Positions 26,413 through 31,011 of a stretch of 64,000 nucleotides of DNA are shown in pieces. The translations under genes were made by a program, and so were the position numbers. The notes under the pieces were generated by a model. That model did not search any database. It saw nothing but the letters and a program-made list of their open reading frames with translations, and was not told the DNA's origin. The stretch is from Streptomyces camelliae. Lineage in GTDB: Bacteria > Actinomycetota > Actinomycetes > Streptomycetales > Streptomycetaceae. Position 1 is the first letter of the stretch; every line of letters starts with the position of its first letter. Location: positions 4,774,001-4,838,000 of the forward strand of contig NZ_CP115300.1 in NCBI RefSeq assembly GCF_027625935.1, written 5' to 3'.

Positions 26413-26521
26413 GCGTCGATGATCGCCCGCCCGCGCGCGGGACGCAGCCGGGGTGCAACGGGACACCTTGTCGCGAGGTCTCCTCCACCTCTCGCGTACG
26501 ATCCCTCCACAGAGCTGAAAC

Positions 26522-26540
26522 TTAGGCAAGGCTAACCTAA
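26522..26540. promoter_or_regulatory. Iron box (DmdR/IdeR-type operator)
   Basis: TTAGGCAAGGCTAACCTAA matches the 19-bp DtxR-family consensus TTAGGTTAGGCTAACCTAA at 17 positions. It ends 17 bp before the acylase GTG start at 26558, where a bound repressor would block transcription. It lies 109 bp from the divergent HhH-GPD start and so most likely controls the acylase operon. Iron-loaded DmdR1 should repress it. Confidence 0.88.
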
Positions 26541-26557
26541 AGTGAAGGGGATTCCGG

Positions 26558-29155
26558 GTGACCACCGAGACCTACCGTGACGCCTGGGGCATCCCCCACC
26601 TGCGCGCCTCCAGCGCCGCTGAACTCGCGTACGCCCAGGGTCGGGTGACCGCGCTGGACCGCGCCTGGCAACTGGAGGTGGAACGCCACCGGGCCCAGGG
26701 CAGCTCGGCGTCCTTCCTCGGTGCCGCCGCCGTGTCCTGGGACGTCCTGGCCCGCCGGGCCCGCCTGGACGACACGGCCCGCCGCTGCTTCGCCGCGCTG
26801 GACCGCCGGGACCCCGAGACGGCCGACTGGGTCCGCCGTTACGTCGACGGCGTCAACGCGGGCCTGCCGGAGGGCGCCCGCCGCACCCCCGAGTTCGCCC
26901 GCGCCGGCCTCACCCCCGGCCGCTGGGAGCCCTGGACTCCGCTGGGCGTCTGGCTCGCGGCACACCTCCTCTTCGCCGGTTTCCCCGCCAAACTCTGGCG
27001 CGAGCAGGCGATACGGCACCTCGGGCCCGACGCGGTCGGCCTGTTCGCCACCGACGGGCCCGGCACGGCCGGCAGCAACGGCTGGCTGCTCTCCGGCGCC
27101 CGTACGGCGACCGGTCACGCCCTGATCGCGGGCGACCCGCACCGCTTCATCGAGGACCCCGGCGTCTACCAGCAGATCCGCCTCTCCTGCCCCGAGTTCG
27201 ACGTCATCGGCCTGGCCGTCCCCGGCGTCCCCGGCATCGCCCACTTCGGCCACACGGGCTCCGTCGCCTGGGCCATCACCAACGCCATGGCCGACTACCA
27301 GGACCTCTACCGAGAACGCCTGCGCCGCACCGGCGCCGGCATCGAGGCCCTGGGCCCGGACGGCCACTGGCACCGCGCCACCCGCCACACGGAGACCGTG
27401 CACATCGCGGGCGAACCCTCCCTGGAGATCGAGGTGATCGAAACGGCCCGGGGCCCCGTGATAGCCGGCGGCCCGGAGGGCCTGGAGGCGGGGCTCACTC
27501 CGGGAGGGCCGTACGGGGCGCAGGCCGCGGAATCGCCGTACGACGCGGAAAGCACCGAGCCGCTGGGCGGAGGGGTGACGGCCGAGCCACTCGGGGGAGG
27601 CGAGACCGACGAGCCACTGCATGAGGCGGAGGTCGCTGAGCTGCTCTACGTCTCACAGGCCGCCGAGCCGCCGTCCGACGCGGGGTTGGCCGAGCCGCCA
27701 TACGTCCCGCAAGCCGCCGGGCCGCCGTACGCCCCGGAGGCCGCCGGGCCGCCGTACGACACGAACTCCGCCGAGCCGCCGTACGCCGCGGAGGCCGCCG
27801 AACCACCGTCCGACGCGAAGTCCGCCGTATCGCCGCACGCTCCGCAAGCCACCGAGCCGCTCTACGAAACGAAGTCCGCCGAAGCGCCGTACGACCCGCG
27901 AGCCGCCGACGGCGAAGGCGCCCGACCGGGGCTGCCACCCGCACCCGACGGCGAAACCGTCACCGTTGGTGCGGGTGGGAACGGAATCCTCGCCGAAGGC
28001 GGAGCCGAGGCGCTGGCCCTGCGCTATCCACCCCGGGTCACCGCGGACCTCGGCTTCAGTGCCCTCCTCCCCCTCCTCAGGGCCCGCACGGTCCAGGACA
28101 TCGACCGCGCCCTGGACCACTGGGCCGAACCCGTCAACGTGGTCCAAGCGGCCGACACCGCCGGAGGCACCCTGCACCGCACAGCCGGCCGCGTCCCCCT
28201 GCGCGCCGAGGCCAACCTCCGCCACCCGGTCCCCGCCTGGGAACCCGGCCACGAGTGGCACGGCACGCACCGGACGCTGTACGCCGACCCCGAACCGCCC
28301 GACGGCATCGCGGTCATGGCCAACCAGCGCACCCTCGCCGCCCCCCTCGGCATCGAGTTCGCCCCACCCCACCGCGCCGACCGCATCCGCGCCCTCCTCG
28401 ACACCCGCCGCACCTGGACCGCCGACGCCCTGCCCGCGATCCACACCGACACCCACCTCGGCTCCGCCGGCCCCCTGCTGGACCACCTCGCCGCCCTCGA
28501 CGACCTCACCCCCGACGCCGCCCGCCTGCGCGACCGCCTCCTCGTGTGGGACCGCCGTATGGACGCCGGCAGCGCCGACGCGGCGGCCTACTCCGCGGTG
28601 CGCGGCGCGGTCGTACGCCACCTCGCGGCGCATCCGGTGTTCGCCCCGCTCGCCGAGCCCCCCGCCTACCCGGAGGTGCTGCTCCCCTGGCTGGCCCTCG
28701 TCCCGCGCATCGGCTACGCCCTCGAACACCTGCTGCGGGCCGAGAAGTTGTACGGCATCGACCGCCCCGCCGCCGTCCGCGCGGCCCTGGAGGAGGTGGC
28801 CGCCGCGCCCCCGTCCGGCACCTGGTCCGACACCCACCGCCTGGCCCCCTGGCGCGCGCTGCCGGGAGAGCCGTACGACGAACCCGGCCTGGCCGGCGAC
28901 CACGACTGCGTGCTGTGCACCTCCGCCGTCCCCGGCCTGACCGACCGCGCGGCCCGCGGCCCCGCCGCCCGCTACGTCTGGGACCTGGCCGACCGCGAGA
29001 ACAGCCGCTGGGTGGTCCCCTTCGGCGCGGACGGCGCCCCCGGCTCACCCCACCACCGCGACCAACTCCCCTTGTGGCTCAGGGGAGATCTGGCCCCGGT
29101 CGTCACCGACTGGACCCTGCTGACCCCGCTGGAACGTACCGAGGAAACCCCATGA
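26558..29155 (+). CDS. Penicillin-acylase-family Ntn hydrolase, iron-regulated
   Basis: The 865-aa protein has the layout of penicillin G acylase, AHL acylases and PvdQ: an alpha part (residues 1-172), then autoprocessing before Ser173 in GTAGSNGWLLSG, the new N-terminal nucleophile of the beta chain. FGHTGSVAWAITNAMADYQD and GIAVMANQRTLA are further family motifs. There is no signal peptide, unlike most relatives, so it appears cytosolic. Residues 313-447 are 15 copies of a nonapeptide of xAAEPPYxx type inserted in the beta chain. GTG 26558 has GAAGGGG upstream. The stop overlaps the acetyltransferase ATG. The iron box suggests a siderophore-related amide substrate. Confidence 0.87.
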   Translation: MTTETYRDAWGIPHLRASSAAELAYAQGRVTALDRAWQLEVERHRAQGSSASFLGAAAVSWDVLARRARLDDTARRCFAALDRRDPETADWVRRYVDGVNAGLPEGARRTPEFARAGLTPGRWEPWTPLGVWLAAHLLFAGFPAKLWREQAIRHLGPDAVGLFATDGPGTAGSNGWLLSGARTATGHALIAGDPHRFIEDPGVYQQIRLSCPEFDVIGLAVPGVPGIAHFGHTGSVAWAITNAMADYQDLYRERLRRTGAGIEALGPDGHWHRATRHTETVHIAGEPSLEIEVIETARGPVIAGGPEGLEAGLTPGGPYGAQAAESPYDAESTEPLGGGVTAEPLGGGETDEPLHEAEVAELLYVSQAAEPPSDAGLAEPPYVPQAAGPPYAPEAAGPPYDTNSAEPPYAAEAAEPPSDAKSAVSPHAPQATEPLYETKSAEAPYDPRAADGEGARPGLPPAPDGETVTVGAGGNGILAEGGAEALALRYPPRVTADLGFSALLPLLRARTVQDIDRALDHWAEPVNVVQAADTAGGTLHRTAGRVPLRAEANLRHPVPAWEPGHEWHGTHRTLYADPEPPDGIAVMANQRTLAAPLGIEFAPPHRADRIRALLDTRRTWTADALPAIHTDTHLGSAGPLLDHLAALDDLTPDAARLRDRLLVWDRRMDAGSADAAAYSAVRGAVVRHLAAHPVFAPLAEPPAYPEVLLPWLALVPRIGYALEHLLRAEKLYGIDRPAAVRAALEEVAAAPPSGTWSDTHRLAPWRALPGEPYDEPGLAGDHDCVLCTSAVPGLTDRAARGPAARYVWDLADRENSRWVVPFGADGAPGSPHHRDQLPLWLRGDLAPVVTDWTLLTPLERTEETP
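27494..27898. repeat. Fifteen 27-bp tandem repeats within the acylase gene
   Basis: From 27494 to 27898 the frame consists of 15 consecutive 9-codon units; the best conserved read QAAEPPSDA, QAAGPPYAP, EAAGPPYDT and NSAEPPYAA. The period is exactly 27 bp with no frame loss. Units near 27650-27820 are most alike, and the outer ones have diverged. Confidence 0.88.
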
Positions 29156-29742
29156 CCGACCTCTTCGAACAGCACACCGACCCCTTCGGCACCGTCCGCA
29201 TCCGCCCCCTCGACCCGGCGTCCGACGCGGGCGTGATCCATAACTGGGTCAGCGAGGAACGCGCCGCCTTCTGGGGCATGACCGGCCTCACCCGGGACCA
29301 GGTCGCCGACATCTACGCCCACATGGCCGGCCTCGACACCCACCACGCCCACCTCGTCACCCTGGACGGCACCCCGGCCGCCCTGTTCCAGACGTACGAG
29401 CCGGCCGCCGACCGGGTCGGCGAGTGCTACGACGTGCTCCCGGGCGACCTCGGCGTCCACGTCCTGCTCGCCCCCGCCGGCCCGGCCGGCCCGCGCCCCG
29501 GCTGGTCCTCGGCGCTGCTGACCGCGATGGCGACGTACGCGCTGCGCATCCTCGACCGGCGCCGGCTCGTGGTCGACCCGGACGTCCGCAACACCAGGGC
29601 GATCGCCCGCTTCGAGCGCGAGGGCTTCGTCCGCGGCCCTGCGGTCGTCCTGCCCGAGGTGGACCTCCCCGATGTGTACCTGCCGGAGAAGCACGCCCAA
29701 CTCGCCTTCCTGGACCGGTCCGTGGCCTTCCCCGGCGACTAG
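29152..29742 (+). CDS. GNAT acyltransferase of the siderophore (IucB/AlcB/MbtK) type
   Basis: The 196-aa protein fits the Acetyltransf_8 group that acylates hydroxylamines and amines in hydroxamate siderophores: IHNWVSEERAAFWGM, LFQTYEPAADRVGECYDVL, PGDLGVHVLLAPAG, DPDVRNTRAIARFEREGF and YLPEKHAQLAFL. The acyl-CoA donor is unknown. ATG 29152 overlaps the acylase stop (ATGA), so the two proteins are made together. The pairing of an acyl-adding and an amide-cleaving enzyme under an iron box points to siderophore tailoring or recycling. Confidence 0.87.
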   Translation: MTDLFEQHTDPFGTVRIRPLDPASDAGVIHNWVSEERAAFWGMTGLTRDQVADIYAHMAGLDTHHAHLVTLDGTPAALFQTYEPAADRVGECYDVLPGDLGVHVLLAPAGPAGPRPGWSSALLTAMATYALRILDRRRLVVDPDVRNTRAIARFEREGFVRGPAVVLPEVDLPDVYLPEKHAQLAFLDRSVAFPGD

Positions 29743-29752
29743 CCTTCTCTCC

Positions 29753-30247
29753 GTGCCGCCGACACCGGAAGACCCGACACCGGAAAAGCTGATCGCCCAC
29801 TACGCCCTCGTACCCATCCCCCGCGAAGGCGGCCTGTACCGGCGGACCTGGACGGGGCCCGCGCGCCCGGACGGACGTCCCGCGGGGACCGCCATCGTCG
29901 CCCTGCTCACCGCCGACGACTACTGCGCCCTGCACCGCCTGCCCACCGACGAGATCTGGCACTTCTACCTCGGAGACCCGCTCCACCTGCTGCTCCTCGC
30001 CCCCGACGGCACCACCCGCACCGCCGTCCTCGGCCCCGCACCGCTGTCCGGCCAGCACGTCCAGCTGACCGTGCCCGCCCGCACCTGGATGGGCGCGCGG
30101 GTCGCTCCGGGCGGCGCGTGGACGCTCTTCGGCACCACGATGGCCCCCGGATTCACCGAAGCGGACTACGAACACGGCGACCCGGCCACCCTGACGGCGC
30201 GTTACCCGTCCGAAGCCGTCCGCATCACGGAACTGTCCCGCCCATGA
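29753..30247 (+). CDS. Cupin_5 (DUF985) protein
   Basis: The 164-aa protein begins at GTG 29753, 10 bases after the acetyltransferase stop. It has the cupin_5 pattern: LIAHYALVPIPREGGLYRRTW, LPTDEIWHFYLGDPLHLLLL (metal- or sugar-site region), APGGAWTLFGTTMAPGF and the end FEADYEHG-like EADYEHGDPATL. Relatives include yeast YML079w, of unknown activity. It is third in the iron-box operon and overlaps the next gene by ATGA. Confidence 0.85.
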   Translation: MPPTPEDPTPEKLIAHYALVPIPREGGLYRRTWTGPARPDGRPAGTAIVALLTADDYCALHRLPTDEIWHFYLGDPLHLLLLAPDGTTRTAVLGPAPLSGQHVQLTVPARTWMGARVAPGGAWTLFGTTMAPGFTEADYEHGDPATLTARYPSEAVRITELSRP

Positions 30248-31011
30248 ACGCGAACCTTCTCGACGGACAGACCGCCCTGGTGACCGGCGCGGGCGGCGGC
30301 ATCGGCCGCGCCATCGCCCTGCGCTTCGCGGAGCAGGGTGCGGCGGTGGCCCTGCACTGCCGTACGGCGGTGGACGCGGCCGGTGAAGTGGCGGCCCGGA
30401 TCCGGGAGTCGGGCTGCGCGGCCGTCGTCCTGCGGGCGGACCTGACGGACGAGGACGCCTGTCACCGCCTGGTCCACGAGACGGCCGACTGGTCCGGCGG
30501 CCGCCTCACCGCCCTCGTCAACAACGCGGCCGTACAGCCGGTCCAGCCCCTGCCCGGGATGGCGGCGGCCGAGTGGCGTGAGGTCGTCGACACCGACCTC
30601 ACCAGCGTCTTCGCCTGCACCCAGGCCGCGGCCGATCACATGCGGGCACACGGCGGCGGCACGATCACTCACATCGCCTCCATCGAGGCCGCCCGGCCGG
30701 CTCCCGGCCACGCCCACTACAGCGCGGCCAAGGCGGCGGTGGTGATGCACGCGCGCGCGGCGGCTCTGGAGTACGGCCCCGACGGCATCCGCGTCAACAC
30801 GGTCTCGCCCGGTCTGATCGCCCGCGAGGGGCTGGCGGAGGCCTGGCCGGACGGCGTACGCCGCTGGCTCGCCGCCGCCCCCACCGGCCGCCTGGGCCGC
30901 CCCGAGGACGTGGCCGACGCCTGCGTGTTCCTGGCCTCGCCGCTCGCGAGCTGGATCACCGGGCACGACCTGGTCGTGGACGGCGGCATCTCGGCCCGCC
31001 CGACGTGGTGA
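30244..31011 (+). CDS. Short-chain dehydrogenase/reductase
   Basis: The 255-aa protein is a classical SDR: cofactor motif TGAGGGIGRAIA, NNAAVQP, catalytic Ser in ITHIASIEA, YSAAK (Tyr and Lys), and the C-terminal DVADACVFLASPLASWITGH with VVDGG. Arg after the second strand (HCRTAVD) suggests NADP(H). ATG 30244 overlaps the cupin stop by ATGA. It is probably the last gene of the iron-box operon. The substrate is unknown; the context suggests a step in siderophore or acyl-precursor metabolism. Confidence 0.9.
   Translation: MNANLLDGQTALVTGAGGGIGRAIALRFAEQGAAVALHCRTAVDAAGEVAARIRESGCAAVVLRADLTDEDACHRLVHETADWSGGRLTALVNNAAVQPVQPLPGMAAAEWREVVDTDLTSVFACTQAAADHMRAHGGGTITHIASIEAARPAPGHAHYSAAKAAVVMHARAAALEYGPDGIRVNTVSPGLIAREGLAEAWPDGVRRWLAAAPTGRLGRPEDVADACVFLASPLASWITGHDLVVDGGISARPTW

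Follow-up and report, generated by a model that had tools for sequence, protein, structure and literature searches.

We analysed a 64,000-nucleotide stretch of the Streptomyces camelliae chromosome (NZ_CP115300.1, positions 4,774,001 to 4,838,000; hereafter the window) and, within it, a four-gene operon behind an iron box at positions 26522-31011. This locus is very probably desGH, in which DesG, an Ntn hydrolase, desuccinylates N-hydroxy-N-succinylcadaverine (HSC), DesH, a GNAT acyltransferase, acetylates the product, and desferrioxamine B (DFOB) results, the trailing cupin and SDR genes being passengers. The system is already known, and the window holds a Streptomyces copy of the published iron-controlled desGH pair, by which a share of the siderophore output is diverted to DFOB. 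The first-pass annotation, made from the DNA letters, had regarded it as undescribed; its proposals of iron control, of acylation set against deacylation and of tailoring of a hydroxamate siderophore, desferrioxamine being the compound to examine, were right.

The published counterpart is desJGH of Streptomyces coelicolor, described in PMC12161575 (published in 2025). According to that paper, a DmdR1-controlled region (SCO4045-SCO4052) holds desJ, encoding a reductase, desG, of the penicillin amidase family, and desH, encoding a DesC-like acyltransferase (desJGH is SCO4048-SCO4050; desG and desH are SCO4049 and SCO4050), together with an HhH-GPD gene (SCO4047) and, behind desH, a 'sugar epimerase' gene followed by a dehydrogenase gene. 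Loss of desG lowered DFOB about 1000-fold and loss of desH about 16-fold, with an increase in desferrioxamine E, and the authors proposed that HSC is desuccinylated by DesG and the product acetylated by DesH. Expression of desJGH is also mentioned in PMC13011467. Shared with the window are an acylase and a DesC-like GNAT in one iron-box operon apart from desABCD, the HhH-GPD gene upstream and the genes named epimerase and dehydrogenase downstream, SCO4051 and SCO4052 being equated with the cupin and SDR genes from their names only; at the S. violaceoruber locus (L199) the cupin is present with no SDR match. The window differs from S. coelicolor in that desJ was not found and in that its DesG carries a 182-residue repeat loop. 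The detection rule of the same source asks for a PF01804 gene no more than 1 kb from a PF13523 gene; in the window the two genes overlap by 4 bases, with an iron box upstream and desABCD in the same genome.

The predicted iron box (TTAGGCAAGGCTAACCTAA) agreed with the consensus TTAGGTTAGGCTAACCTAA at 17 of 19 positions, as the first-pass annotation had it. The gene spacing that it gave (ATGA, 10 bp, ATGA) also held, with desG and desH overlapping at 29152, the cupin and SDR genes overlapping at 30244 and 10 bp between desH and the cupin gene, and its four family assignments (Ntn acylase, GNAT, cupin_5, SDR) were borne out by matches to PF01804, PF13523, PF06172 and PF13561. On the basis of this spacing, all four genes are probably co-transcribed here. 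The box was the sole site at up to three mismatches on either strand of the window, the maximum count in 100 shuffles being 0. Across the 9.6-Mb genome three sites matched TTAGGNNAGGCTNACCTNA exactly, this box and one just 5′ of desA among them, and at up to two mismatches this pattern gave 12 rows versus 2 for the reversed control pattern.

Within the region 26522-31011 no synthetase, decarboxylase or monooxygenase adjoins the operon, as had been noted. Together with the iron control, this favours the earlier idea of a stand-alone module for siderophore recycling or xenosiderophore processing, which we nevertheless regard as highly improbable. The module does not stand alone: its genome also carries desABCD, and among the sampled genomes no desG was counted without desD; in addition, S. 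coelicolor mutants lose their endogenous DFOB (PMC12161575). The genes desD, desC, desB and desA lie in a row about 1 Mb away (C1:5848502-5853546; PF04183, PF13523, PF13434 and PF00282), in a cluster that also includes a siderophore-interacting reductase, a binding protein and iron boxes (C1:5848502-5855644).

Co-occurrence was surveyed across a sample of 121 Streptomyces genomes that includes the one carrying the window, with presence defined as a best match at E <= 1e-100. At E <= 0.001, 120 of the 121 genomes had some desG match, mostly to distant paralogs, and for many genomes scoring was limited to the 19 top candidates. desD was present in 95 genomes and desG in 70, all 70 of which had desD, while desG was counted in none of the 26 genomes lacking desD, one of which (G012) carries what looks like a remnant, spread over two overlapping frames. 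For this association, the Fisher p (1.3e-12) ignores shared ancestry and is descriptive only. Fragments in G003 and G012 were left out of the desG count, which took in G117, G097 and the contig-cut copies of G050, G046, G102 and G119 and missed a contig-cut desGH (L131) in G001, where desD is present. Apparent desG remnants were seen at L132 (G003), where desD and a full-length cupin-SDR pair are kept, and at L149 (G012), with no desD match.

Gene order and promoters were compared in two sets of loci, named (80 loci) and sampled (71 loci), which overlap in species. A box scoring at least 16/19 lay within 260 bp 5′ of desG at 147 of the 150 loci with enough upstream sequence (79 of the 80 named loci, 70 of the 71 sampled loci and the window). 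The three exceptions were L196 (15/19), L095, where desG stands beside desC and desD, and L124, the G012 remnant. As a baseline, 255 of 273 random stretches of the fetched loci scored 8 to 12, and the other 18 scored at least 16 and are presumably true boxes. With at least 5.5 kb of downstream sequence available, desH followed desG at 74/74 named and 61/63 sampled loci, the two loci without it being L124 and L115, a second desG copy in G079. Box, acylase and GNAT are conserved together with very few exceptions, the question that the first-pass annotation had put to a genome survey. According to a motif test, DesG and DesH were joined in a single frame in 10 of 65 proteins from the sampled set and in 4 of 76 from the named set; desG-desH fusions are reported in PMC12161575 for S. 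atratus and Micrococcus. The sampled count includes L114 (G117), a wrong-strand read, in a genome whose real desG looks shortened. The desG-like gene at L115 has a best upstream box-like site of 17/19 (TTAGCTTAGCCTAAGCTAA), and its genome also has a desGH locus, L083.

From its sequence, DesG is predicted to be an N-hydroxy-N-succinylcadaverine desuccinylase. Alignment to solved acylases, in the 4hsr numbering and with Table 1 of PMC11241749, put the start of the beta chain at Ser173 and placed S173, H195, T241, N589 and R606 at catalytic positions; N527, which aligns only with a one-residue gap, probably is a further catalytic Asn. The pocket residue beta-24 is R196. S173, H195, R196, T241 and R606 were found in 77/77 DesG proteins and N527 and N589 in 76/77, and the Arg at beta-24 recurred in 77/77 named-set and 66/66 sampled-set rows. 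Trp61, the published stop site in DesG, was Trp in 77/77 and 65/66 rows of these sets, respectively. Among the ten structures in Table 1 of PMC11241749, Arg at beta-24 occurs only in 4HSR and in a D-succinylase (7EA4), described there as acting on D-amino acids, whereas PvdQ and three of the four penicillin G acylases have Phe and the fourth, 6NVW, has Val. We propose this Arg as a mark of dicarboxylic-acyl acylases such as 4hsr and D-succinylase; its fit to the published desuccinylation model, better than to a PvdQ role, is suggestive only.

By sequence, the closest solved chain to DesG was 35sz (362 bits), followed by 4hsr (224), D-succinylase (98), penicillin G acylases (at most 69.5) and PvdQ (26), and Foldseek ranked D-succinylase first (1.2e-25), ahead of 4hsr (1.1e-23), penicillin G acylases (4e-12) and PvdQ (2e-10). 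The 4hsr protein, a class III cephalosporin (glutaryl-7-ACA) acylase, shares with DesG the S45 Ntn fold, the SNxW start of the beta chain and a DPHR motif that carries the beta-24 Arg, but has His at beta-70 where DesG has Asn, and the natural substrates are not alike. The D-succinylase of Cupriavidus sp. P4-10-C (PDB 7eby/7ea4) is 24 percent identical to DesG over 651 aligned positions. Its substrates are N-succinyl-D-amino acids.

The first-pass annotation had likened the acylase to PvdQ of Pseudomonas, which is likewise an S45 Ntn hydrolase tied to a siderophore. PvdQ is periplasmic, and the group that it removes is a fatty acyl. The analogy proved weak, since DesG reached only 30 bits against the NCBIfam bi_acylase_PvdQ model, whose equivalog cut-off is 950 bits, and in the sequence comparison glutaryl acylase and D-succinylase scored above PvdQ and the penicillin G acylases; a PvdQ-like role was rejected on this profile score, the beta-24 residue and the sequence ranking. 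Inspection of the sequence agreed with the lack of a signal peptide noted earlier, as there is no N-terminal hydrophobic stretch and RDxxGIPH, with which the conserved part of the family opens, starts at residue 7. That DesG and DesH instead cap desferrioxamine with aryl or fatty-acyl groups, DesG being a phenylacetyl-type acylase, would agree with its membership of the penicillin-amidase family and with an older idea, recounted in PMC12161575, that DesG makes phenylacetic acid-capped forms in some strains. We consider such capping very unlikely, given an Arg at beta-24 in place of the residues of PvdQ and the penicillin G acylases, and bit scores for 4hsr and D-succinylase above that of the best penicillin G acylase.

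DesH is, judged by its family and relatives, a predicted N-hydroxycadaverine acetyltransferase. It belongs, with the DesC and DfoC acyltransferases, to one Pfam family of GNATs, its best solved relative is DfoC (5o7o, E 2.7e-21), and it is identical to the DesC of its own genome at 65 of 176 aligned positions (about 37 percent). DesH would differ from DesC in using acetyl-CoA rather than succinyl-CoA, as proposed in PMC12161575. The DesH residues unlike those of DesC and DfoC were tabulated, but a comparison with a single DesC and a partial DfoC is too thin to use.

Taken together with the conservation of the box and the S. coelicolor data, these features would fit a pathway in which iron starvation takes the DmdR repressor off the box and desG and desH are transcribed along with desABCD. 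HSC would be made by DesA, DesB and DesC and cyclised by DesD to desferrioxamine E. DesG, as a self-cleaving Ntn hydrolase that apparently lacks a signal peptide, would take the succinyl group off HSC, and the freed N-hydroxycadaverine would be re-acylated by DesH with acetyl-CoA to give the acetylated monomer HAC, which would let DesD terminate the chain as DFOB. The cupin and SDR proteins would be passengers with a separate role. The coordinates of the locus are collected in Table 1.

Table 1. Features of the desGH locus (window coordinates).
Feature	Position	Strand	Details
DmdR-type iron box (predicted)	26522-26540	+	matches consensus at 17/19; desG start codon 17 bp downstream
desG, S45-family Ntn hydrolase	26558-29155	+	GTG start, 865 aa; PF01804, E 4e-151
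Hypervariable DesG loop, residues 303-484	27464-28009	+	27-bp tandem repeats between 27555 and 27909
desH, DesC/DfoC-like GNAT	29152-29742	+	PF13523, E 1.5e-43
cupin_5 (DUF985) gene	29753-30247	+	PF06172, E 1.3e-36; first half of the facultative cupin-SDR pair
SDR gene	30244-31011	+	PF13561, E 7e-60; second half of the cupin-SDR pair

The ATGA overlaps and short spacing, which suggest co-transcription, and the presence of both the cupin and the SDR gene behind desH at 43/74 named and 18/63 sampled loci would favour a single four-gene unit in which these two proteins also tailor the siderophore or its precursor. Several observations weigh against such a unit, which we judge to be unlikely. The presence of the cupin (E <= 1e-20) was independent of desG, with 25 of the 70 desG genomes and 17 of the 51 others having it (G001 among the latter; p 0.47), and in one of the 25 (G058) it lies far from desG. 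The pair persists in G003, where desG and desH are fragments and both cupin and SDR match over their full length, and in G032, where desG and desH were undetected between the HhH-GPD and CopC/CopD-like genes. Conversely, desGH occurred with neither gene at 23/74 named and 40/63 sampled loci. Among 18 examined cupin loci without intact desGH alongside, an SDR match lay within about 200 bp of the cupin at 15, and at all 18 no iron-box site above 12/19 was found in the 600 bp 5′ of the cupin. A four-gene functional unit was rejected on these co-occurrence data. Because the pair persists without desGH and desGH occurs without the pair, cupin and SDR most plausibly form a unit of their own, frequently located downstream of desH. 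Of the four-gene conservation expected by the first-pass annotation, the part concerning desG and desH held, and that concerning the cupin and SDR did not.

With regard to desJ, no gene was found between the HhH-GPD gene (PF00730, from the profile match of the window gene) and the box (26413-26521), and a search elsewhere in the genome by family and by protein returned only two SIP-type genes, which match a desJ protein at 28 and 31 percent identity; one of the two belongs to the desABCD cluster. Since the HhH-GPD gene abuts the box and only these distant matches were found, desJ appears to have been lost from this genome. A divergent desJ lies upstream of desG at 58/77 named and 50/70 sampled loci; it is not defining for the desGH locus, because it was also undetected at 19/77 named desG loci. 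At L154, the space separating desG from the HhH-GPD gene is taken up by a gene for an FG-GAP repeat protein (496 aa, PF01839).

The loop of the window DesG comprises 182 residues in 9-residue repeats. The length at this site ranged from 6 to 249 residues among the 66 sampled-set rows of 600 aa or longer (65 of the 71 loci and the window, L114 being included); in the named set (77 rows, from 76 of the 80 loci and the window) it reached 271, in S. tricolor. Loops of at least 60 residues were present in 20/77 named-set proteins, and very short loops were common. Compared by eye, the repeat units are unlike between related species, and almost all copies read keep the frame open. The loop is probably disordered, with pLDDT below 50 at residues 311-480 of the model, which is weak evidence because pLDDT is low elsewhere in the model as well. 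This fast-evolving minisatellite, always at one site, might act as a functional tether or an access lid; it could, for instance, keep DesH close to DesG, so that freed N-hydroxycadaverine receives its acetyl group before DesC can succinylate it again, and might in this way tune the ratio of DFOB to desferrioxamine E between species. Such a role appears doubtful. Because short loops are common and in G097 a stop lies within the loop with the frame resuming after it, the loop may simply be tolerated. Among the literature matches listed, none dealt with the DesG loop or with roles of the cupin and SDR, no search having been aimed at the loop. New here are the failure to find desJ in this genome and a repeat-built loop ranging from 6 to 271 residues across species.

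Two further loci were noted in the genome of the window. At L052 (C1:2516000-2530000), possibly another siderophore locus, a second synthetase of the NIS type is accompanied by its own GNAT of the DesC/DesH type (259 aa), and L053 (C1:1977000-1992000) carries two divergent IucA/IucC-family matches (L003 and L004), possibly a third NIS siderophore cluster.

Desferrioxamine B is an iron-overload drug produced by fermentation. With the present assignment, an iron operon that looked like an orphan becomes a known point of control over this compound. To the published model, the survey adds that desG was found only together with desD and that DesG has an active-site arginine that could suit the succinyl carboxylate, which is suggestive. 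As for the trailing cupin and SDR genes, their membership in siderophore biosynthesis should not be assumed.
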